Positions 64 to 26,900 of a stretch of 64,000 bases of DNA are shown here, in pieces. The translations under genes and the position numbers were made by a program. This DNA comes from Pomacea canaliculata (taxonomy: Eukaryota; Mollusca; Gastropoda; Architaenioglossa; Ampullariidae), in contig NC_037592.1 of the NCBI RefSeq assembly GCF_003073045.1, positions 39,985,760-40,049,759 on the forward strand. Direction: 5' to 3'. Under the pieces are notes generated by a model. It saw nothing but the letters and a program-made list of their open reading frames with translations. It did no database searches and was not told where the DNA came from. The first letter of the stretch is position 1; every line of letters begins with the position of its first letter.

Positions 64-96
64 CTGATGTACATGCACAAGCCACGCCAACACCAC
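64..96 (+). CDS. TEP-A bait-region microexon (33 nt)
   Basis: A 33-nt segment between a pyrimidine-rich acceptor (ttttttttcacag) and a consensus donor (gtaagt). In phase 1 it reads [10 protein letters not shown] with split codons at both ends, so it is symmetric (phase 1-1). It lies upstream of the exon that restarts the conserved VRNLFPETW core, which is where the protease bait region sits in A2M-family proteins. Calling it an exon is inference from splice sites and phase; no transcript data are available. Confidence 0.6.
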
Positions 97-3000
97 GTAA
101 GTCTAAATAACATTATGATATAGATAATACTTTAATAATATTATTATATGATGTAATGTGGTTTGTGTCTGACACAGATGTATTGTTTCGCATGTTGTTT
201 TTGAAGTAACATGTCTCTAACATGCATACCCTGAACTGTGACTTGTGCATCGAGAATATAAATCTTCTGACACTCAGTGAGGAACACAAAAGACACGAGA
301 GCGTGGCAAAGGAGCGAAACAAATTTTGGGACCAAGATTACCCTCTCCTTTCTCTTCTGCAATATCCTCCTTATTATTTCTGTCTGTGTGAGCTAGAATG
401 ATTAATTCTTTATCCAGACCCTATACACCATCAAAAACAATTTTTGGTATTTTCATCTAACATTTTAGAGTCAGACCTTTTAGCCTCAGTTTTTGAATCA
501 AAGCATTAGTACAAAAATTACAAAATCCTCTCAGCTATCTCACTCATGAACGCAAAAAAGTAAAGTCTACCCAAGCACCAATTTACGAATAATAATTAGT
601 TGTAATTACCTTTACTTATATTATTGTCGAAGTCTTAGCGTGTAAAACGCAGACACGAACAAACGCACAGGCACACACACACACACACACCTGCACGAGC
701 ACATGCGTGTGTCTGCTTTCTGTATGTATTCATGCAGCTATGTTTGTATGTGCTTTGTATATACTGTGTGCTAAGTGTTAATAATTTGTGGACATAATCG
801 TTAATGTTGAGTAATTTCGTATAGTCTTAGTTTAAGCTTATGTCTCTCAACATTTTATCAAAGTCATAAAGATGTTAATATATTCTCTTTTTCCACTGGT
901 TGCTGTTTAGTCCCTACTTGTGTTCCACATTTAATGGGCAAGTATGAATCTGTTTTTTCTCTTCATTGTTTCGTTTCTATTTCACCTGTCTGCTTCTTCT
1001 ATTGACGGTCCGGTGGCGCAACGGTTAGCGCCTGTCACCAACATATTGAACATTGGCTGTCCTGGGTTCAGCTCTCGTCTCGGGCACACGGTTCTTTTTC
1101 TACATGTGGCATCTGTAAAACACCGATAAACAGTCAAACACCAAACCCACTTCCTTGCTTCTGTAAAACATTTTTAGGAAACATGGTCATAATAAGACCT
1201 ACAAGGTTCCGATGATAGAACATATAAACCCAATCATCATTAAAATTTTTAAATTTTTATCATATTATTTCTTCTTTGTCATCATCGCTTTCATCATCAT
1301 AGCAATCGTCGTCTTCATCGTTGTCATTGCCTTCTGCTCGTGCTGCTTCTTCTTCTCTTCCTTGCTGAGCTACACCCTCTTAGGCAGGATTACATACAAT
1401 CTCGTTTTCTAATATTTTGTTGCCATGCTCTTTTCTTCTTCTACTTACCTCAGATTTCTACAAAATTTCCTCCGACTGTACTGGCGACATTGAAATATGC
1501 TCACACCACTGAGTGTACTCTAGGTCAGGATGTATTTGTAAGGTTTAATTTCCTGACTATGTATTTAATACATAATAGACAAAACATATTATAACGATTG
1601 CGATATTTGATTTGCAGGTTCGTGGGGTGAGAATCCTTACGGTACAATTTTTTTTTCACTTTTTTTCTTTGTTCGCTTGTTTCCTCTTTTTTCCAATCAT
1701 TACACATAAAAACCATGGACATGTGTAGGTGGATTGCTGTCTGTCTGCCGAGACCAACGCTTAGCCTCTTGTGAAGTTCTCTGCTGTTAGTCTCGGCGAG
1801 CCTAAAAAATGAATGTGACTAAACCGGAAGCTTTGTATATATACACACACACATTTGCCTCGTTCTAGTAATTAACTGAAAACAAAATCGTCTGCAAGCA
1901 GTCCAGTAATACAAGTTCGTGTACAAACTAGAGAGTGCGTATTGGCAGCAAAGCTTTAATCACAATGTTCAACATCATGGGAGCAAACAGGTTGTTTACT
2001 AATGAAGTCAGAGTTGTCGGTGTGTCTCTCACTGTTCACGTGTTCATACGATGTTGTTCCTACAGTGGACTCACATAAAAATCAGCCTCTACAGGAGGTA
2101 GAGAGGGTGCGCAACCTGTTCCCTGAGACCTGGCTCTGGCTGAACCAGACAGTCGGGTAGGTACATACACACACACACATAATGTAAACGTACTGTAATG
2201 TATCTCAGCTTAAGATGGCAATTATTAATTAATTATTTAATTATTCACTCGATCATAAATAAGAAACGTTGTATAAGTCACCGCGAGTTCCTAGCACTTA
2301 CAATGTCGAACTAATGGCGATTCTCTTAACAGACGCAACGGCTCGGCGACGATTCACACCACAGTCCCAGACACCATCACCTCCTGGATCACCACAGCCT
2401 TCGCCACCAACCTTCAGTCTGGTCTGGGAATCACTTCATCTGCTGCTAAGGTACCCGGTGTACTAGACTTCTTCTCTTAATAACTATTAAGGAGAATTTT
2501 TAGATAAAATCTGAAGCTTTGAAAAGCTTTCCCTACGTTCTGGTTGAACAACCTTTGCTGGAATTTTGTGTCTGTACTTTAGAGATTTTGAGTTTTCTTG
2601 CCTGACTTCTTGTAACTTCTTGTTGACCAGAAAACACACAAATGTGCATAGAATACAGCGCTTAACGTTGTTGTTACGTGGTTGGGGCGTTGATGAGAAC
2701 AAGCAAGAGTCTGAGATGTCCAGTGCTTGTCGTTGTGTAAATTAACTGAGTGCATGAGGATGAGGAGAATATTATCTGGTTGCATCTTTCACCTGTCACC
2801 AGCTGACGGTCTTCCGCTCCTTCTTCGTGAGTCTCACCCTGCCTACGTCAGTCATCAGGGGAGAGTACGTTGTGGTGCAGGCCAGCGTCTTTAATTACCT
2901 CCCTTCAGACGTGTCGGTAAGTTTACTCACAGCTCTTGCATGAGAGAGAGAGCCTAAATAAACTATAAGCAATTATTTCAACACGTCAAACCCCAGTAAG

Positions 3001-5791
3001 TATGTGAGTGATAAGGAGAGAAATAACAACCTGGCTAATCCACTCCAGACCTCTTAGTACCGGAATTAATTAATATTCACTTTAGGAGGGCGAGCCAATG
3101 ATCACCCACGATACTGATATAAACTTTATTTATTAAATGAAAAAATAACGCCTTTTTCAAGATCATTCCCTTCATTTTCAAGGTACTTTAGTTGCTCAAG
3201 CTTCTGTATGTCATGAGAAAAATGCTTTAGTGAGCAGCGAGCCACCCAAGCGTAGCTGCCTGCAATTCTTGGTTGGAGGTCAATGGATAAACCATAGACT
3301 GACATCAGTGTACTTATTGCAGGTACTGGTGACACTGCCAGCCTCTCACGAGTACTCCAGTGTCGTCATCACGTCCGATGGAAGTGAGGCGATTGATTCA
3401 GGAGACCAAGAACGTGCAGTGACCGTGAGTGTCGAGTTCTAAGAAACTTTCTGATTAGTCTAAAATGTTCTTATACAGGTGGCGCTGCGCAGTAGAATTA
3501 TAGGGAAATCGAGAGCACACAGACTTATTTTAAGTTTTTTAAGGGTCTGTCGGCATATTGCTCTTCTGGCGTATCGTTTGGTTCGAATATTGTAGGAATG
3601 CTTGGATGGAAGACTGTGAATAATAGACGTCTTGGCTTCAGTTTTTCTTGATTTGTTCTGTATTATTTGACGAATTTTGATAATATTAACATTAATGCCC
3701 TTTACTGGAATGTTTAGAAGTCGTATAGAAGAAAGAAAGCGTGGGATCTCAGTCTGACAATATTTTTACCACGTGTGTCTGCAGGTGAAGTCTAACGAGC
3801 AGGCTGTGGTGTACTTCCCCATCATCCCCACGGCCCTGGGAGCCATCGACATCGAGGTGTCCGCCAGGTCCACGCTGGCTGCTGATGCCGAACGTCGACA
3901 ACTCAACGTTGAGGTGATGAATTATTTTTATTCCTTACGTCATCATCGTCGTCGTTGTCATCATCATCATCATCTTTCCATCAAAACAAGCAAACTTGCT
4001 CATAATTCTACTTTTCATATTTCTCTTTCATAATTTAAATGGGTCTGTCGAGTTCGCCCACTGTCCGAGGTCCCTGTGTCATCACACTTACCGCACTCAT
4101 TCTCTGACTCCTCCACAGTCGGCAGCTCCAAACATCAACAATGTACACCTCTGTCAGTTTTAACAAATGGCGCCCGTCCCTTTATCAAAACTTTATTTGT
4201 GTTTCGCAGGCTGAAGGCGTGCCCAACGAGTTCAGTATCCCGGTCTTTATCAACCTCGGTCCTAACGGTTCGGACACCTTCACCCAGACATTCCCCATCA
4301 CCGTGCCTAGCGACGTCGTGGAAGGTTCCTCCAGGTCACGAGTAAAGATCACAGGTAAGTCCTTTGTGACAGCTGAGACAATGAACCGTTACTGAGCATA
4401 ATACAAACGTTGCCTTACAAACAACAGCATTTTCTAAGTTTCGGCCACAAATGTCTGTTCCTGGTACAAGAAATAAAATAAACTGTCCGCTTTGTTCAGG
4501 GGACATTTTGGGACCCAGCGTTGATGGTCTCGACACTCTTCTGCGCATGCCCACCGGATGTGGTGAGCAGAACATGATCAGGATGGCGCCTAACCTCTAC
4601 GTCTCCAATTATCTCAAGGCCACGGGACAGATGACCTCTGACCTTGGAATACGAATCAAGAATCTTCTAGAAACAGGTATTGTTACTCTTATTTTTGAGT
4701 AATGTTGATTCTTTTTAATTTTTTTTTTTACTCGCATTCAATGTGCTCCATGTATAAAAATTATGTTACTTTCTCTCTTTCATTCCCTCTAGATTACTCC
4801 TACTTTATTACTACTATATTACTACTGTATTACTTCTAGCCACTTCTGTTGAAGAACGTATTAAGTTTAAATTAACTAAGAACTTTATTTACTCGATAAT
4901 AAGCTTCCGTTCTAGTCCATGTCTTGCCCAGGTACTTCTCGTGTATTTTATTTTATATTTACTGTCAGACTGCCCCGTGTACGTCCCTTATGAGGTATTT
5001 GCCTATTTCAATCAACTTTGTCGATATTAGTTTCTAACACAAAGAAGTGAATGTGTCCGATTTATCGGGTTTAGGTGTCGCTGTTGCCAGGAAACTTTCA
5101 TTTTCTGTCCAGGCTACCAGAGAGAACTCACCTACCAGAGACAAGATGGAGCCTTCAGCACCTTTGGGAACAACGACAACTCAGGCAGCACGTGGTATGA
5201 AGACATTTAAGTCCAAATTTATTCAAATTAACGAATTGTGTACAGCGAGTGAATCATACATTATCATTATCATACCTTACCAAAAACTCAAGGAAATGAA
5301 AGACTATCATCTGTTATGATGGCCTAGAGAAGTGATGTGAGAATGCTACATGAAACACCCAATCAATGAAGCTTTCAGGCTAAAAGGTTAAAAGGTTAAA
5401 ATAGTTCTCCATTCCTATTGTTTAGAGAATATGCAATGATGCTAAGAACAATAGTTTACATGGCAGCATGACACTTTTGTCTGTTCTTGTGATGTTGCTC
5501 ACACATCAGTGATCGCGAGTCTCTCATCCAATGTCTGACGAGGACACCTGCACTAAGCCTGTGGATCGTTCCTTTTCAGGTTGACGGCGTTTCGTCCTCC
5601 GTGTGTTCCACGAGGCGAGGTCCGATGTTTATGTGGATTCTGCTGTCCTTCAGAGAGCCATGGACTGGCTGATACAGCGACAGAACACTGACGGCTCCTT
5701 CAACGAGTTCGGACACATCTTCGACCCACAGATGAAGGTAAGTTTGTTTGTTTGTTTTTTGGTTTGTTTGTTTGTTTTTTGGTTTGTTTGT

Positions 5792-14900: not shown

Positions 14901-17900
14901 GACGAAGACGTCAAAGGATCCGTGAAGGCCACGTAAGTGTTCTTAATGAGATAGTTTGTCGCGACACAGTAGTTCACTACGTCGACAAAGGTTGAGAGCT
15001 AATGCCAGATTGCACAATGTAATAAAAAGAAAAACAACTTTTGACTTTTATTTGCTGCAACATGTAACGACGCCATTCTTTCTCATGATTTATCAAACTC
15101 CTTCAAAATCCAGAAACAGACGAAGGATTTATACATATTTTGCACAACAATGATTTTTAATACAATATAAATTCAATAAATAAATGGGATAATGATAGAA
15201 GAGAGAAAGCAACGCTCTACACGAAACAATTTTTCATTCACTGATTTTTCCGACTCAATATATTCTTTGTTTGCAGCTACACGTTTGGTCAGCCGGTGAA
15301 AGGCATGGTAGAGCTCCACGTGTCCTCCATGGCGGGGCTGGACTACTGCGGCAAAGAACCTCCCTTCATGCAGATCGCCTTTGACGTCAGTATACCGTTG
15401 TTTGTTTGTTTTTTTTTAATTTAATTTTTTTTTACGTCAGTCTACGGACTTGTTTTTGCTTTTGACGTCAGTCTATGATCTTGTTTCTTCTTTTGACGTC
15501 AGTCTATGAACATTGCTTCAGCTGTTGACGTCATCATTGTAAATTCAAGTTGGCTAAAACTATAGTTTCTAAAATTGTATCTTAGCAAATGAATAATAAT
15601 TAAACTGCACAAATAAAGTTTACACTCAAAATTATTGATAAGAAATAATCCTATAGAAATACTTACCTGACTCAACTATAGTCAGGTAGATAAAATCTGT
15701 TTTGGGAAGATAATTTCTTAGATAATGAACGTTGGTGATGGTCTTGATGTAAATGTTTTCGTTTGTCTTCAGGTTTATTTTTAATTTGACCTTCTCATCA
15801 TTCAAAACCTGTTTATCAGATATACTAATTCAAATATCTAGACATGCAGGTTTAACTTTTGTTGTTGTTTTACTGATTTCCTTCGGGCCTGAAGTACAAG
15901 ATTGCTCCTGTCCTTTAATGCAGATTGACGGAGAAGCGAAGTTCTCTGTACCCCGGGTAGACATCAGCCGTGTGGTGAGCACCTACGACGGTTCTCAGAT
16001 TAAGGTGTGTATATGACACAATCACACTCAGAAAGGAAGAAAGTAGAAACATCTGTATTCTTTTGTTCAAGAAGAAAAGCATTGAAACACATGTTTTGAA
16101 TATCTAAGTTTTTCTTCTGCATTTGCCAAATTTGTTTTTTAGACTTTTGAGCATGGTTTTCAAACTTCAATACTGATTACGATTACCAGTCTGCATATTT
16201 CAGATTCTTCTCGTATGTCTCTATTTTGGGTATATTTAAAATAAGAAATTCAAGTAAAGAATTTGGTAAAGTAACCCAGACGACAAAGTAAATATGTTTA
16301 ACATACTTGTGTTTAGATAACAGCCATTGTGAAGGAGACGTTGACGGACGTGAAGCTGCAGGGGTCGGCGGTGGTGACCTACAGGAGCACGCCGTACAAA
16401 GTGACCATACTGGACAACACGCCTGGTGTCTTCAAGCCTGGACTTCCATTCAGTGTCTTTGTGAGTTGTCTGTCACAAAGAACACGATTGAAGAAATTGT
16501 TAGCTTCATATTCTAGAAATGAGTGTTTTAACATAGTTTATTTTTAAATCCTAGTCTGCTGGTTCAAGTCTTAACACACTGGGTCCGAAATATTTATTGC
16601 ATGATTCTACGCGCTGTTGCCTTAACAGGTTTGTGAAGAGTTTAATGGCCAGTAAACCTCGATTTCGCTTTTTGTAGCGACTTGCCGATAAATATACAAC
16701 TAACTTGCTGGATCTTGTTTTTGCACAGGCCAAGGCTTCAATGCAAGACGACAGTCCAGTGGCTGGTGCCACCACCATGACCATCTTCACAACGGCTCAC
16801 TACAACATCCCCGCGGACAACAGCTTCCTGTACGGGGTGTCACAGTTCACGGGTACCTACCCGTTGCCAGTAAGGACGATTGATGTTCCTCCATCCGGTG
16901 TAGTCAAGATCGACATCGACATCCCCTCCAACGCCACCTCGCTTGACGTCACTGTGAGTTTCTTGGGTATTTTGGGTGGAATGGCTAATAGGAAGCTGGC
17001 ATAATTCACACTTTTAATTTCCTTCATTTTTCAGGGACTCTCTGTCACCCTTCTCTCTCTCTTATCCTCCTGTGTGTGTTGATATCTCGTCCATCAACTG
17101 AATCTGCAGCAAAATATGTATTTCTTATATTTCACAAATGCTGTAATTTGCTAAAACCGTAATTTAAACTAACAGCTTTCTATCTCTCTATCCTCACTGA
17201 TTATTTTAGCTCAGTTAATCTTTTTAGGTAATATATGATGAGTTATTATTCACGTCTTTGTCTTCAAACTTTTCAAACAGGTTGACTTTAAAGGCGTGAA
17301 AGCCAGCAAGAATATCAACAAAATGTTCTCCATTAGCAATAACTACCTGCAGCTGACACTTCTCGACAACAACCTGAAGGTAGTCCTTGTTACATTCAGT
17401 ATTCATTATATTAACTGCCAGTGCTCACACGGAGTTAGGCAAAAGAACAAAGCTCTTCAACATTTTGAGAAAACGTCTTTATGAAAATTTTATAAAAAAT
17501 CAGAATTACTGTATACTCAGTAAATTCTCTACAAATCAGTCTTTACCATATCTAGATGGATTCTGCTTAAGAAGACATTTTTCAGTCTTTTTTATGTAGT
17601 TTGTAAGAACAGTTTGTTACTGTTATTCCCAGATGTCAGAAGTGAACTTAAGTATTACTGAGAAAGAATCGGGTGATCTGCATAATGATTAACAGAGTGT
17701 TTAAGAGAAAATTGTAGTATTCTGTGTACATTTTTCCAATTAAGGACACCTGTTCAGAATGTCATTATTTTGACAGAAAGCAAATGGAAGTGAGAAGAAC
17801 ATGAAAAGATAAAAGTTTGAATTTTGTACAGAGTGGTCAGACAGCCCGCATTCGAGCAAAGTCCACGGAACCTGTTTATCGTCTCTGGTACCAGGTAGTC

Positions 17901-20900
17901 GCTTACCTTATGTTTTGCATGGCTTTTTATTATCATTGTTGTTGTTGTTCTTGTTGTTGTTATTGTTATTGTTGTTGTTGTTGTTGTTATTAGGAGCAGT
18001 TGCCAAGTGACATCTATGGCGGCACATCATAGAGTTCTTTCACCTTTAGATAATTAACCTTGCTTGTGGCAACAAGTTCCCCAGAGAGGCATTGCTGGTA
18101 GTCTTTGTTGTCAGATCCGATCCCCCATTCTATTATAATTAAAATTTTAACAGTAGGCATCCTTTCTGAGCTTATGAGTCATCCTAATATCTTTTTTGTC
18201 TCCTGTAGGTTCTTTCCAGAGGACTAGTCTACGAAGCCACCAGTGTGGACGCTAAAGGTCAGCACGTGATGGTCATTGACATTCCAGTGACCCCTGACCT
18301 GGCGCCAACCGCCCACATGATGGCCTACTACGTGCGTCCTGACCTTGAAATCGTGGCGGACAGCATCGCCTTCAACGTCGACGGAGTCTTCGAAAACGAG
18401 GCTAGAACGCATTTTCGTGTCCATTAGTAATGTCTGAATTTGAGACAGTTTTCTATCTTTCGGGCCTTTGAATTATCCCCAATTATCCAATGTTCGCTGC
18501 TTTATGTTTAAATTGATATTATTGATTACACAGCCTAAAATAATATCTATAATTATGAAAAGTATGCTCCATGACGAAAATATTTCCAACACACCTGTAC
18601 AGGTAACTCTGGAACTCAGCACCAACAAAAGCGAGCCGCACACTGACCTGGATGTCTACCTCACCGCTGACCCTGACTCCATGGTCTACTTGCTCGCTGT
18701 CGACCAGAGTGTCCTACTCATGAAAACCGGAAACGACGTCACACCAGACGAGGCCAGTGTGACCTCCCTTTGTTATTGTATTCATACTGCGTTGTCCTGT
18801 GTCTTTGTAAAAATTAAAACACAAAGAAACTTCCTTTCTGACTCAGTAATTGTGTTTCCTGTCCAGGTGGCAGAGGCAGCTGCAAGCTACAGTGTAGGCA
18901 CGAAGCCATCCGACTCGGCTTTCGCTCTTTCCCTCAGTCAGCGAAACATCGCAGGTACCATCCAGGTAACCACAGTAGTTGCTGTCTGATTAACTTCTAT
19001 TGTTACATGAAATTTGTTTCCACTTGGGAACTAAGCTCCGACATTTCCCAGAAGACCATGTCCATGTGATCAGTGTAAGCAATGTTTACAACGTTTATGA
19101 TGGAGAATAAATGCGGGTCATATCTACAGTTTGACAAGATACTTATACTCTATTCGACAAGATCAAAGTTCACCCAGATGTCAAGGGTTCGATTTTAGGG
19201 TTGTCTGTGTGTATTTGCAGGAAGCCGGTGTCAGGGTGTTCTCTGATGCAAACCTCTACGCCACTTCCGCTCCCACATCTTCGTTGCCATGTAATTATTT
19301 TTTGTGCATGTTGTCTGTGTTTGTGTTTACACCAATTTGTGTACACATCTTCCAGTGTGGAGCACTTGTTACCGCCGTGAAAGTTTTTGTCACTGTCATT
19401 GTTTTACTCGCTTCTAAGAGAGAGGGTTCTTTGCTGCTGTCGTTTCTTTTTGTCGTCTCAGGGAGTAAAATGTGGATCTTTACAAAAACTTGAATAATAA
19501 GGGGCTGACGATAGTCGTTCTTCTGATTTCTGAGGACAGTAAATGCTTGTTGCTGGTCAAACTGGTTTAAGGATTGAAAAGCCGAGAGGTAGCAATGATG
19601 TATGCAGATTACATTCATTTCTTTCATTTAACCTAATCATTGTGTAACGAGTATATATTTCCTATTTCTTTGCAGATGATCCATCAATTTACGGGCGTAA
19701 GTATCCAACTGTATCTGGTGTTAGGAATGTATGTGTGTGTTGGGGGGGGGGGAGAAAGAAATTATTTCAACATTTATTTGTATGTATTATCTAGTACGAT
19801 CACTATCTTAAATTACCCTTGTGGATAAATAAAATTATATTGTAATCTGCTATAATTTTTAACTAAAAACTTTGGAGAGACACACAAACTAATTATTATA
19901 TTGCTTTTACAGCTGCTTCCTTGGCGATTCAACCAACATTTAGTAAGTATATATATATATGTACAGTACATAACAGGTACAATAAGATCGTTTCAATGTA
20001 AAAGCTGTGGTTTGGAAAGTGTTTATATGGCCATGAATACATATGGTCTGCAGTATTTATATTTAAGTGTTTGCTTGAAAGGAATCTATAGTTATTCGCC
20101 TATTTTCTTCATGCACTTGGGGAGGGGAGTATATGCTCATAAGTTTTAATTTCCTCACTGTTTAAGGACGCATTAGAAGGAATTGCTTTTAATTATTGCA
20201 ATATCTAATTTGCAGACCCACAGTTTTGGGGAACTCAAGGTATTACAATATTTCTTTTCTCTCTTTTTTTCATTCTTTCTTTCTTTCTTTCTTTCTTTTT
20301 TTCTTTGTTTCTTTAGACGTGAGTTACGTATGAGCTACAGTAATATGATTTACGTGGTAGCGGGATATAAACCGAGATTTATTCGCTGATTTTCTTTATG
20401 AACTGGGGGAGAGGAGTCCTATGCCTTTGAACCACTAAAACCGTTGGCTGACTGTATTCTTCAAAAATAAGTTACCATAATGGTCATTAGAAGCTTAATA
20501 AAAAAAATTGATCTTTTACTCATGTTACACTTGATGGATAAATGTTATATTTACATATGCCTACACCCCTTGACTAAGTGTACGTCTGGTACGTTCAGGT
20601 GTCTTCGTGAGGTTTAACCACGGACGTGTACAGGTGGACTGCTGTCTGTCTGCCGAGACCAACACTTAGCCTCCGCTGTTAGTCTCGGCGAGCCTAAACA
20701 ATGAATGTAACTAAACCGGAAGCTTTGTACACACCAGCCTCGTTTTAGTAGTTAACTGAAAAAAAATCGTCTGCCAGCAGTCCAGTCATACAAGTTCGTG
20801 GTTTAGTCTCCTTTCCTTTTAAAGACATGTAAGAAGGAATTGATGACAGTAATTGTGATATGTAATTTGCAGCCCCGATGTTTGGACAACCTCTACGTAA

Positions 20901-23900
20901 GAAATCTTTCTTTTATTTACTTATCTAAGTAGTTATAATAATGTCGGCTGATTATATTTTCGAAATTGTCATTAGACAAAAATTGTGAATGCTACACATA
21001 GCATAAATAAAAACAATAGCTTCAATATAAAAATTGCCGCCTTTCAAACGTCTTAACTTTTTGAAATTAATATCGTAACAAAGTATAAGAAATATATATG
21101 TCATATTGATAACTTATTAGTGTTACTCTGCAGATGATCAGGCAGACACACACCAGTTGGCCGAAAGATACCGAGATATATAAAATTAATTTACAAAAAT
21201 ATAAAAAATCTAACTTCATGCTCATGTGCGTGTCTCAATATGTAAGTACAGATGCGCGTGTAAGTCTCCAAAGGCAGGTCAAGGTAGGTAGAGAGGTAGG
21301 TCAGTTATAGTCGATGCTGTATCACTAATGTACAGGAAAATATAATAATATAAATGTCAAGATTCCTTCAAAAGAAAATAATCTACTATTTCTTCTTTTA
21401 CCCACTGGTGTGTAGCAGCCATGACATTCCAGCCAGGCAGGGGTAAGTAAACTGCAGTTCCTCTTTTCGTTCTTTTGTTTTCATTTCCATCTTCTGTATC
21501 TCTACAGTTTGAAGTAAGACTGTTAAGGAATCTCTAGGCACCGGTGCCACACCAAACTCTAAAATATTTGGATAGAGGATGTACACTAGCGCCATCATCA
21601 ACTTCTTACAAAATCTTGAAACAAATAAAGTATTGTGATTGTCTCTATTACAGCTCCAGGAAACGGTGGAAGTGGAGGTAATATAAAGTTGTTTGTTCCT
21701 TCTTTCTCTTCTTTCTTCTCCTTAGCCTTCTTGTTCTTGTTCTTGTTCTGTTTTCTGATGACGCAAGCATCACACGCTATATTGGCTGCTGTGCCTGTCA
21801 CGTGTCACGTGCTCAATCCGCCATATTTGTGTGTCACGAAGGTGACATGAAAAATTCATTAGACATGGCAAATGTCTAGTTGTGGATGTTCCAGAACACA
21901 AGTGTGTGGATTAATAATGCAAGTCTCTATTTAATAGAGGATTTGCTGAGACCGGCGACAGATTCTCGGGTGGCGCCGTAAACGACCTGAAAAATCAGCC
22001 TCTGCAGGAAGTTGAGCGGGTGCGCAACCTGTTCCCTGAGACCTGGCTTTGGCTCAATCAAACAGTCGGGTAGGCAACGACAGTTCTTTGTGAATAGGTC
22101 TTGCTTCCAATATAACTTTACTTTTTCTGCCTATTTAGGAAACGTTGCCAGCTGATTCAAAGTCTCGATTCCAACCAATTATTATCTCGTTTCAGTAAAT
22201 TCACATATTCACACAAACGTTTCATCAACGACCTAAAAGTGTAACTCATTGAAGGTCGGACTTAACGAAATTTGTTTACTAGCTCGGACGGCTCGGCCAC
22301 GATTCACACCACAGTCCCAGACACCATCACCTCCTGGATCACCACAGCCTTCGCCACCAACCTGCAGTCTGGCCTGGGAATCACTTCCTCTGCTGCTAAG
22401 GTACATAACTCTGTAACTGATCATTGTCATTGTCATTGTCATTGTCATCGATCCTCTGTGTAGTCACAACCTCTCCTGCTTTACAGTCTCTTACTGTTCT
22501 GCTCACGCGTTTAGTTGAAGCTGAACTGTCTTCTCTCTGTTGTTGTAATCCACGTGTAGACTCGCACGAACCTGTGACCGTCTTATGTCACCAGTTGACG
22601 GTCTTCCGCTCCTTCTTCGTGAGTCTCACCCTGCCTACGTCAGTCATCAGGGGAGAGTATGTTGTGGTGCAGGCCAGCGTCTTTAATTACCTCCCTTCAG
22701 ACGTGTCGGTAAGTAAACACGAAAACTAACTGAAGCTGATCACGTGTTTCAGAAATGACTTGGACAATTGATATTACTACTGCAAATTGACTTGGTCTTG
22801 ATATTGATGTTCTTCTGCAACTGCTCTGGTATTGTAAAAAACATGCATGACATTATAATGTACCCATGATGATGTGCAAGTACGGCTGTACTGTATTATA
22901 GAGCAGGTCACACACCGTTAGTTTACTCTTTGCAGGTGCTAGTGACACTACCAGCCTCTCACGAGTACTCCAGTGTCGTCATCGGCTCTGACGGAAGTGA
23001 GGTCATTGATGCCGGAGACCAAGAGCAGGCAGTGACTGTAAGCAGACGACTCCAGTTCTTACAATCTTCAAGTCTGTTATTTCCTTGACGCACATGTCAC
23101 TGTTCAACTTGAATATTTTCACTCAATGTTCGTCCCACGTGTGTCTACAGGTGAAGTCTAACGAGCAGGCTGTGGTGTACTTCCCCATCATCCCCACGGC
23201 CCTGGGAGCCATCGACATCGAGGTGTCCGCCAGGTCCACGCTGGCTGCTGATGCCGAACGTCGACAACTCAACGTTGAGGTGATGAGTTATGCTTTTACT
23301 CCTGTCCTGCATTCATTATTTATGAGTTTATTAGTTCCTTAGTTTGTTGTTTAGTCAGTTTCTGGGTTGGTTGTCCGACATCTTTATCAAATGTGTGTCA
23401 GGTCCATTCAAGCTCAGCCATTGACCGAGATCACCTCGAACCTTTTATTCATACTCATAGCACAAATTCTGTAAATTCTGTGCAGACAGAAGTTCAAAGA
23501 CCACACATCGAACATCATTATCAGTTTTTAACAACTTATGCAAATGGCCGTCCTTTTGTCACATACATATCTCTCCTCTCCAGGCTGAAGGCGTGCCCAA
23601 CGAGTTCAGTATCCCGGTCTTTATCAACCTCGGTCCTAACGGTTCGGACACCTTCACCCAGACATTCCCATCACCGTGCCTAGCGATGTCGTGGAAGGTT
23701 CCTCCAGGTCACGAGTAAAGGTCACAGGTAAGTCCTTTCTGACAGCTGAGACAATGAACCGTTACTGAACATGATACAAACGTTGCCTTACAAACAACAG
23801 CATTTTCTAAGTTTTCGGCCACAAATTTCTGTTCCTGGTACAAGAAATAAAATAAAGTGTCCTCTTTGTTTAGGGGACATTTTGGGACCCAGCGTTGATG

Positions 23901-26900
23901 GTCTCGACACTCTTCTGCGCATGCCTACCGGATGTGGCGAGCAGAACATGATCAGGATGGCGCCTAACCTCTACGTCTCCAATTATCTCAAGGCGACAGG
24001 ACAGATGACCTCTGACCTTGCAATAAGAATCAAGCATCTTCTTGAAACAGGGTATTAAGTTTAAATTAACTAAGAACTTTATTTACTCGATAATAAGGTT
24101 CCGTTCTAGCCCATGTCTTGCCCAGGTACTTCTCGTGTTTTATTTTATATTTACTGTCAGACTACCCCGTGTACGTCTCTTATGAGGTATTTGCGTCCTT
24201 CAATCAACTTCGTCAACATTAGTCTCTAACACATAGAAGTGAATGTGTCCGATTTATCGGGCCTTATGTGTCGCTGTTGCCAGGAAACTTTCATTTTCTG
24301 TCCAGGCTACCAGAGAGAACTCACTTACCAAAGACAAGATGGAGCGTTTAGTACTTTTGGGAACAACGATAATTCAGGCAGCACGTGGTATGCGTTTTTG
24401 GAAAGTTTATTTATTTTTTATTTATTTTTGAAAATTTATTTCAATGTGGTCAGACAATGCAAACATCACACACAATTCCAAACTCTGACAGTTGATCTTT
24501 TTGATGGACCAAGAAGTTTGATTTTAATTAAAGTACAAAACCTTATACCTCATACACAATCAATATACAAATACATACATAGATAAATCATACACAAATC
24601 AATAAAATGTAATAATATTAAATAAATAAAATTAAACTTTAAATGTCTTACTATTGCTCCTGGAATGTGCAATGGTACTAGAAGCAAACGCAATATTCTC
24701 AGAAATATTATTTCATCTAAATGACAGGTTAGCAAACCACTGTTTGGAATTGAAATATCTAATGTCTAATATTCGTTATTCTTTTTTAGCATTATTCAGT
24801 CAAGTTGACCGATTCTCTCATTGTTTGACAGTTTACTGCTGATGTACATAGTTTTACTCAATTTGTAAAAACTTTTACATTTCTTTTATTGATGCTGCAC
24901 ACGTTTACTAAAGATGTTCGTTTCGAACTAAGGCTGAACATCTTTGTGCTTTGACTATATATATTATTATTATGGGTGCAAATCTGTTGACGAGGGCTGT
25001 GCAATGTGTATCCCTACTCGGCAGGTTGACGGCGTTCGTCCTCCGTGTGTTCCACGAGGCAAGGTCCGATGTTTATGTGGATTCTGCTGTCCTTCCAGAG
25101 AGCCATGGACTGGTTGATACAGCGACAGAACACTGACGGCTCCTTCAACGAGTTCGGACACATTTTGACCCACAGATGAGGGTAATTCTGATGAGAAAGT
25201 GAGGTTTTCAATAATCCCTTTCGGGACAGATGAAATTAAGAACACTCACTCTTGGTATGTCAAAGAGAACTGGAACCGCAAGAACTGAGGAAGTAAAAAC
25301 TTCTCACGACAAAGACATGAAAAAGAAACTAAAGGAAATGTTGATGGTTAATTGTGGATTTTTTTAATGTAAATTTTTTATGTAAATTTCTACAAAGACC
25401 CTTCCTCGATTACATCCTTTGAATTTATCATTCGCTGGCAGACATTTGGTGACCATTCCTCGGGTCTGACGGCCTTTGTTCTCCTGGCTCTGCTTGAGAA
25501 TGCTGACGTCCCATTGACGATAGTAAGTTCAGTCTTTTGCCTTGACATTCAAGTGAGACATTCGACATTCGCTGTCGTTGATCTCGATGTCTGAAAACTG
25601 CAGTTCAGACTTGCTGTGTAAATGTGTTTTGTGAAATAAGATTGATTTTTTTTTTTAAAGTGACACGAGGTCTTGTAAACATGTTGACAATGAGCGATTG
25701 AACATCCTCAGGTTCAAAGGGAGGCTTACAACAACGCCACGTCACGCGCACTCCACTTCCTGGAGACCACCCACGCCAACATCGCCGACGACCTTTCCTT
25801 GGCTCTCACCACCCTCACTCTGGTGAAGGCCAGAAGTCCTGCTGCTGACGTGGCATTCGCCAAGCTGATGTCTCACTCCATCACAGAGCGTACGTCCTTA
25901 ACCTCTAAACTTTTGAAAGTTCTCAGGTCATGACCTCTGTGGATTGATGTGTTCTCACAGGGACGCCACCAACATGTCTGATGTATTTGTTGACTTTTCT
26001 GTTGACAGACGGATGACTTTCTGGAAGTCAAACGAGACTCTTGCTATCAACGCCTACAGCCACTGGCGTCCAGCCTACGTACGCGCTCGACCAATCGACA
26101 TCCACGTTACATCCTACGCGCTGTTGGTGTTCGCAGCCAAGGGCCTGTTCCAGGAAGGAATGAGCGTCCTTCACTGGCTAACTCGTCAGCGAAATCCCTA
26201 CGGTGGCTTTGCTTCTACACAGGTAGACTATCACTTTATATGCAGATATGAAATTTGTAATTTCAAGTGATTAATGCATAAGGTAAAGCATTAATTATAA
26301 CTATTGGTTATTATTTTTTTTAAAAAAACATTATTATACATTTTGTCAAACATCTCTTTTTTCTATGTTGAATATCCTTTAAACCTGTTCACTGCGAAAA
26401 GCCTACGCGTGGCCTTTGTCACTCGACAAAAGATTTACTAAGTATCGACGGACCATTCTTTGCTCAGGACACCATTGTTGGCTTGCAAGCGATGACAGAA
26501 TTCTTGAAGGAAGCTTCACCCTCTGGTTTGGACCTTCACCTCGATGTAAGAACTGAGCACACTGCCCCCCACTTTGACGTCACTTCCGCTAACAGTCTTG
26601 TTCTCCAAGCCAAAGAGGTAAAGACTCAACATATACTTTATATCTCTTGTTAGATTAGGTCATGTTAATGATGTCTAGCTTTGGGTCAAACTTGATAACA
26701 AGGTTAGATGACGAAGATTACACAAAGCCTTTATGCAAAATGGACAGAAACAATTTTACAGAAATTATCCTTCTTTTAAAGTTGTTATTATTATTTCTTT
26801 TCTCCGTTCAGCTTTCATTCATTCCATCGCAAGTGACGTTTGAGGCCTCAGGAAAAGGCGTGGCCGTTGCTGAGGTCAGCAGAATTTATTTCTTTCTTTT

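Follow-up and report, generated by a model that had tools for sequence, protein, structure and literature searches.

A putative modular microexon array at the bait region of clustered thioester protein genes in Pomacea canaliculata

Introduction

The bait sequence of a trap of the alpha-2-macroglobulin (A2M) type decides which protease fires it, and the locus studied here raises the question of whether such a bait can be put together from a chain of exchangeable microexons. The locus lies in a 64,000-nucleotide stretch of the Pomacea canaliculata genome (assembly GCF_003073045.1, contig NC_037592.1; G000:C3:39985760-40049759; hereafter the window), in which a sequence-only reading had placed six very small segments at the bait region of one thioester-containing protein (TEP) gene, TEP-B. 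By comparing TEP-B with its paralogues, we concluded, with a probability of about 0.8, that a modular array of phase-1 microexons codes for the bait loop in this group of CD109/A2M-like TEPs. Exchangeable microexon modules would allow an innate effector to be retuned simply, with its folded domains untouched, and they would combine the known principles of alternative bait exons and of micro-exon genes.

Results

The genome searched comprised 440 Mb on 24 contigs. A search for the TED domain returned 60 matches, counted exon by exon, and revealed several TEP clusters. Six TEP genes stand head-to-tail on contig C3 at 39.90-40.01 Mb, the last two of which lie inside the window; these paralogues are referred to as L009 to L014, with L013 being TEP-A and L014 being TEP-B. 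The DNA compared consisted of 9.9 kb around the bait of each cluster gene, together with 12 further TEP loci. Our own exon model was too permissive to define genes exactly, and only exons backed by paralogues were used.

As listed in Table 1, the six segments of TEP-B were present where they had been proposed, with sizes of 21, 30, 24, 24, 24, and 24 nt (ME1 to ME6), and all six were preceded by AG, followed by GT, and in phase 1 at both ends. Read after the upstream flanking exon, which ends in phase 1, they run in phase 1 into the GFAETGDRF of the downstream exon. Their assignment to the bait was likewise borne out, as the array stands between the A2M_BRD and A2M domains and between two aligned CD109 blocks. 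In a partial composite protein of TEP-B, Pfam recognized A2M_BRD, A2M, and TED (E = 9.5e-28, 1.3e-26, and 1e-24, respectively) as well as MG4, and the cassette-coded stretch falls between A2M_BRD (composite residues 172-309) and A2M (residues 459-550). The best solved relatives were CD109 (E = 8e-100) and A2M (E = 2e-70), in which the bait also lies between these two domains. The CD109 alignment stops at VFSDANL and restarts at GFAETG; the bait gap is therefore spanned by composite residues 365-424, of which 11 come from the end of the upstream exon and 49 from the codons of the six cassettes. In the CD109 chain this gap holds ENLYFQG, which we take to be an engineered bait, namely a tobacco etch virus (TEV) protease site.

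Table 1. Features of TEP-B and TEP-A in the window, with the evidence for each.
Feature	Window position	Locus position	Strand	Evidence
Exons and introns of TEP-B coding A2M_BRD	17281..18750 (approximate, exon list)		+	Pfam PF07703, E 9.5e-28, composite residues 172-309
Upstream flanking exon (EAGVRVFSDANLYATSAPTSSLP)	19221..19290		+	Phase 0 to 1; acceptor 9.2, donor 4.8 bits; homologue in all six paralogues; CD109 VLTDANL aligns
ME1, 21 nt, Y-DPSIYG	19676..19696		+	blastn match to five paralogues, E 3e-7 to 6e-10
ME2, 30 nt, P-ASLAIQPTF	19913..19942		+	Same order, phase, and CT start as 33-39-nt counterparts in five other genes
ME3, 24 nt, N-PQFWGTQ	20216..20239		+	Homologue in L012 (93 bp, E 9e-8)
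First copy of duplicated unit (ME3 and intron flanks)	20161..20258	L014 4821-4918	+	blastn
Dispersed repeat, about 200 bp, intron before ME4	20610..20810		+	40 scored of 3134 genome-wide candidates
Second copy of duplicated unit (ME4 and intron flanks)	20818..20914	L014 5478-5574	+	blastn
ME4, 24 nt, A-PMFGQPL	20873..20896		+	Tandem duplicate of ME3
ME5, 24 nt, P-MTFQPGR	21419..21442		+	Splice signals (5.4/10.3 bits) and frame only
ME6, 24 nt, A-PGNGGSG	21654..21677		+	Splice signals (7.5/6.2 bits) and frame only
Downstream flanking exon, GFAETGDRF start, onset of Pfam A2M	21940..22069		+	Acceptor 0.05 bits
TED exon of TEP-B, thioester motif GCGEQ	23874..24051		+	Exon list and Pfam
TEP-A second cassette, 33 nt	64..96	L013 4024-4056	+	28/33 identical to L012
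TEP-A third cassette, 27 nt, PTCVPHLM	911..937	L013 4871-4897	+	16/27 identical to L012, flanks 94/104
TEP-A cassette, 24 nt, SWGENPY, ME3 counterpart	1618..1641	L013 5578-5601	+	L012: upstream flank 55/60, exon 14/24

The same arrangement was found throughout the cluster. Both flanking exons were found in every one of the six genes, separated by 2.5-4.8 kb that contain a microexon array, and the 29 cassettes listed, three to six per gene, were 15-39 nt long and without exception multiples of 3. ME1 was detected in every gene with the same length and borders (YDPSIYG or YDPSING, with KDPSIYG in two genes), and in three pairs of genes its six inner codons showed six silent changes and none that alter an amino acid. 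A second cassette of 30-39 nt beginning with CT also occurred in all six; the sequence similarity of ME2 itself was confined to 19 bp shared with L010. Later cassettes bear marks of duplication: ME3 and ME4 belong to a duplicated unit of 98 bp (70% identity, E = 3e-7; exon 13/24 identical, flanks 56/74), and cassettes m3 and m4 of L011 represent a second tandem duplication, with 80% identity over 69 bp that cover the upstream flank and the start of the exon. ME5 and ME6 had no exon match in the five paralogues by blastn. The list was pruned by judgement, which removed L014 5343-5366 (24 nt, inside the repeat at window 20610-20810), L009 5906-5932, L010 4193-4216, L011 3158-3196, L012 4091-4105 and 5305-5334, and L013 1951-1989 and 2174-2194; L012 4757-4774 and 4775-4783 were counted as one 27-nt exon, and L013 5578-5586 was counted as 5578-5601. 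L012 5305-5334 and L013 5414-5443 are an identical 30-nt candidate with donor gtgaca in one gene and gcgaca in the other, either a lost exon or no exon. The third cassette of TEP-A apparently uses a GC donor (gcaagt), its L012 counterpart having gttagt.

Splice signals in TEP-B were uneven. The acceptor and donor scores of ME3 (4.4/3.8 bits) and ME4 (4.0/4.7 bits) are a weak point, as is the downstream exon, whose acceptor scores 0.05 bits and has a rival AG 2 nt upstream, the use of which would change the reading frame; in L009, a phase-1 acceptor of 7.0 bits precedes a similar start of this exon, GATTC. ME5 has a second acceptor 3 nt upstream (21416-21442, 27 nt) and ME6 a stronger one 6 nt downstream (21660-21677, 18 nt), both keeping frame. 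Because these overlapping variants score, the two cassettes may be 27 and 18 nt long instead of 24. ME5 is the sole cassette of the TEP-B array with Arg or Lys; other genes carry K or R in different cassettes.

Segments of this kind could arise by chance as splice-like motifs within a single long intron, or they could lie in a decayed region of a pseudogene. Generic splice matrices were applied to AG...GT pairs 12-45 nt apart, both in the six bait intervals (18.6 kb) and in control DNA. At the strict threshold (acceptor ≥8 and donor ≥6 bits), the candidates in the bait intervals were distributed 16/0/0 by length modulo 3, as against 3/5/5 in the window outside the bait, 3/5/5 on the other strand of the window, and 11/9/6 in the 12 distant TEP loci. 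The pooled controls (17/19/16) thus had 17 of 52 candidates divisible by 3 (Fisher p = 7.9e-7 versus the bait intervals); the antisense strand of the bait intervals, kept out of the pool, gave 1/0/2. Looser thresholds yielded 22/2/2 and 36/10/11 in the bait intervals (p = 1.7e-6 and 1.9e-5). All 16 strict candidates were open in phase 1, compared with 12 in phase 0 and eight in phase 2. In TEP-B, the two strict candidates were ME1 and the 18-nt form of ME6. With a summed splice score of at least 12, TEP-B alone contained six open phase-1 candidates, namely ME1, ME2, ME5, ME6, and two overlapping ME5/ME6 variants, where 0.77 (window sense strand outside the bait) and 0.91 (antisense) were expected per 2.65 kb; 200 dinucleotide shuffles had a mean of 0.53, and none reached six.

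The later cassettes change rapidly while retaining their form. In the closest pair, L012/L013, three variable cassettes kept length and phase 1 although 26 of 84 bases differed (58/84 identical), compared with 261 of 1963 in the surrounding introns (1702/1963 identical; p = 3.6e-5). Phase 1 is open in both genes, whereas each of the other two frames hits a stop in at least one. The proportions of nonsynonymous (pN) and synonymous (pS) differences were 0.402 and 0.132 in these cassettes (pN/pS 3.05), versus 0.008 and 0.063 (0.13) over 448 codons of ordinary exons. The L010/L011 cassettes pointed in the same direction more weakly (pN 0.619, pS 0.417, ratio 1.48; ordinary exons, 384 codons: 0.046, 0.103, 0.45). 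The ordinary segments passing the match cut-off numbered 12 of 18 for L012/L013 and 10 of 18 for L010/L011; the 30-nt candidate identical in L012 and L013 was kept out of the main rate, and cassettes of unequal length (L010 m3 with L011 m3 and m4) stood outside it. Seven pairs were selected to be roughly independent (three from L012/L013, two from L010/L011, ME3/ME4, and L011 m3/m4), and gapped alignment of these gave an exon identity of 122/189 versus 504/649 for the flanks (p = 2.6e-4); nine other pairs of the identity table, four of them ME1, were outside this pool. We read this pattern as diversifying selection acting on real coding cassettes.

Several observations weigh against the array as we read it. 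The strict candidates are unevenly spread over L009 to L014 (3, 4, 5, 1, 1, and 2) and come mostly from the paralogues. Homologous cassettes are not independent; therefore, the true weight of the modulo-3 signal is smaller, and counting about eight independent cassettes gives (1/3)^8 = 1.5e-4. The three pairs used for ME1 were picked inside sequence groups; between groups, one residue varies (Y or N), and the ME1 junction codon, outside the count of silent and amino-acid changes, encodes Y in four of the genes and K in the other two. Taken alone, pN above pS reaches p = 0.022 for L012/L013 and 0.12 for L010/L011. Not all of the cassettes outpace the introns: the second L012/L013 cassette is 28/33 identical, and the divergence beyond that of introns stems mostly from two of the three. 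Inclusion of ME1 and the doubtful 30-nt candidate reduces the values to pN 0.246 and pS 0.087, with an excess over introns at p = 0.038. L010 has no evident phase-1 acceptor for the downstream exon, and the cassette junctions are predicted from genomic sequence. Finally, relative to all five paralogues, ordinary exons of TEP-B carry 1-bp indels at about 23667, 25095, and 25164, all in short homopolymers.

These indels, together with several weak splice sites, are what chance motifs or a decayed region would lead one to expect in TEP-B. However, private 1-bp indels also occur elsewhere (one in L009, two in L011, and one in L013; none in the aligned parts of L010 and L012), and because of this and of the short homopolymers, an assembly error is likely; decay of TEP-B into a pseudogene is possible. 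The indels at 25095 and 25164 are one insertion and one deletion, which cancel each other. The family-wide case is independent of whether TEP-B is decayed, and the frame signal across six genes, the silent changes in ME1, and the retention of phase in later cassettes whose amino acids change all speak against chance, which is unlikely for the family; we consider chance motifs or a pseudogene region very improbable as the explanation of the array.

The sequence-only reading had further proposed that any subset of the segments keeps frame and that the array diversifies an immune effector. The first proposal held for 63 of the 64 TEP-B subsets and failed for the empty one, as joining 19290 to 21940, the splice that this reading had set as a refutation, creates TGA. 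Openness was computed for five genes, L010 being left out since its phase-1 acceptor was not evident; all subsets were open in L011 (64/64), L012 (16/16), and L013 (16/16), whereas 9 of 32 in L009 close the frame and skipping all of its cassettes gives a stop. As for diversification, the cassettes appear real, located at the bait, duplicated, and fast-changing between genes; the ordinary bait length of the full chain, splice sites no weaker than in ordinary exons, the L009 subsets, and the TEP-B stop argue against free mixing. Variation of the cassettes is thus demonstrated between genes, and their independent optional use within transcripts is a candidate property.

We lean slightly toward the view that some cassettes may be left out of part of the transcripts, so that one gene would give several baits, as exons as short as 15-39 nt are prone to skipping when set between introns of a few hundred nt. 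A serious competitor, which we rate somewhat short of even odds, holds that all the microexons are constitutive and always joined in full, with diversity arising between genes and species through duplication and fast substitution. Full inclusion of the listed cassettes gives 105 nt in L012, 123 in L009, 129 in L010, 147 in L014, and 162 in L011 (the 78 nt for L013 omits its 27-nt cassette). This range of 105-162 nt corresponds to 35-54 codons, which is of the order of a classical bait; the 49 codons of TEP-B are an ordinary bait length, and the human A2M bait has about 39 residues. The splice sites of the 29 cassettes, which were partly chosen by score, also matched ordinary exons in strength (medians 8.7 versus 8.0 and 7.4 versus 6.5 bits; p = 0.15 and 0.33), and the frame closures in L009 and the stop on skipping all cassettes in TEP-B and L009 fit constant inclusion too. 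Constant inclusion is opposed by the general tendency of such small exons to be skipped, by the weak sites of ME3 and ME4, and by three Biomphalaria TEP genes that, according to the accessible text of PMC7016707, splice their bait exons alternatively.

A more extreme alternative is that every cassette can be included or left out on its own, so that a gene would yield dozens of baits under regulation by immune challenge. The open subsets of TEP-B, L011, L012, and L013 agree with it, as does the variation of secreted proteins through such symmetric exons that the available part of PMC5825161 describes for schistosome micro-exon genes. Nevertheless, that subsets are open is largely a consequence of phase and does not show that they are used, and L009 is constrained in frame; we regard this alternative, argued from genomic sequence, as improbable.

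Discussion

How an array of this kind might operate can be outlined from its structure. Because each cassette begins and ends in phase 1, it can be added, removed, or rewritten without harm to the folded domains. The sequences show that the first cassette has been kept in all six genes and that the later ones have been duplicated with their intron flanks, altered in number and length, and, where pairs align, subjected to fast amino-acid change. Joined in mRNA, the cassettes would form one exposed bait of approximately 35-54 residues, cleavage of which by a protease would trigger the thioester trap, and the different P1 residues supplied by the cassettes of each gene may tune which protease does so.

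Other TEP genes of this genome carry a different design. At C3 36.955-36.971 Mb (36955784-36970572, minus strand; L022, L027, and L029), a TEP locus contains 16 tandem copies of a bait exon with variable N-terminal parts and the shared ending R..FPETW(L/M)W. The copies are apparently of at least two types, with WTS..G and WANARTR ends. Three copies of an FPETWL(W/F) exon at L019 (C3 31.08 Mb) and two at L024 (C13 18.21 Mb) are probably alternative bait exons as well. The cluster genes have one FPETWLW exon per 9.9-kb stretch each, and a mutually exclusive whole-exon set was rejected for them on this ground. No comparable microexon array was seen within 4.5 kb upstream in the 10 of 12 distant TEP loci where a bait-side exon was found; in L020 and L023 no such exon was found, and their baits lie outside the comparison. 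The same genome thus appears to hold two designs at the bait site, microexon arrays and a 16-copy whole-exon array, which are therefore directly comparable.

Among known systems, BgTEP2 of Biomphalaria glabrata, with 12 tandem mutually exclusive exons (PMC7016707), is similar in being a snail TEP with its variable region at the corresponding place and several exons per bait. As far as the accessible text describes it, each alternative BgTEP2 exon, of which one is selected, comprises a variable part and a conserved C-terminal end, whereas the cluster genes have cassettes of 15-39 nt and a single FPETWLW exon. The array at C3 36.96 Mb resembles the exclusive exons of BgTEP2 and exceeds their number of 12. 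Drosophila Tep2, scallop CfTEP, and shrimp A2M-2 also vary their baits by alternative exons (as cited in PMC7016707); compared by the description in the available part of that source, none has a microexon chain described. For P. canaliculata C3, the accessible portion of a 2026 paper reports one dominant transcript and does not deal with the cluster genes (PMC13365339); an abstract on the same species mentions 315 RNA-seq datasets (PMC12469834).

Schistosome micro-exon genes (MEGs) have symmetric exons of 6-36 bp, and the mature region of three MEG families shows dN/dS above 1, according to the available parts of PMC5825161 and PMC4350168. The cluster cassettes share the small symmetric exons, one of the 29 (39 nt, in L009) being above 36. 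As characterized in those parts, MEGs consist of microexons over about 80% of the coding region and encode parasite secretions or membrane proteins, whereas here the microexons are restricted to the bait portion of a large host gene whose other exons are ordinary (approximately 63-225 nt in the modelled stretch), so that microexons do not make up most of it. That the six genes include symmetric 15-39-nt exons in varying combinations, giving many baits per gene under positive selection as a host counterpart of MEGs, seems rather unlikely to us. In the literature within reach, which lacked most subscription papers, alternative bait exons and schistosome MEGs were found and a microexon array in a TEP bait was not. 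By inference, gene predictors probably miss many such exons.

The intron before ME4 contains a dispersed repeat (Table 1), for which 39 other copies, 85-94% identical, were found among the 40 scored of 3134 candidates. It was rejected as a source of the exons, as none of the six segments lies inside it. The baits of L012 and L013 contain stretches that resemble this repeat.

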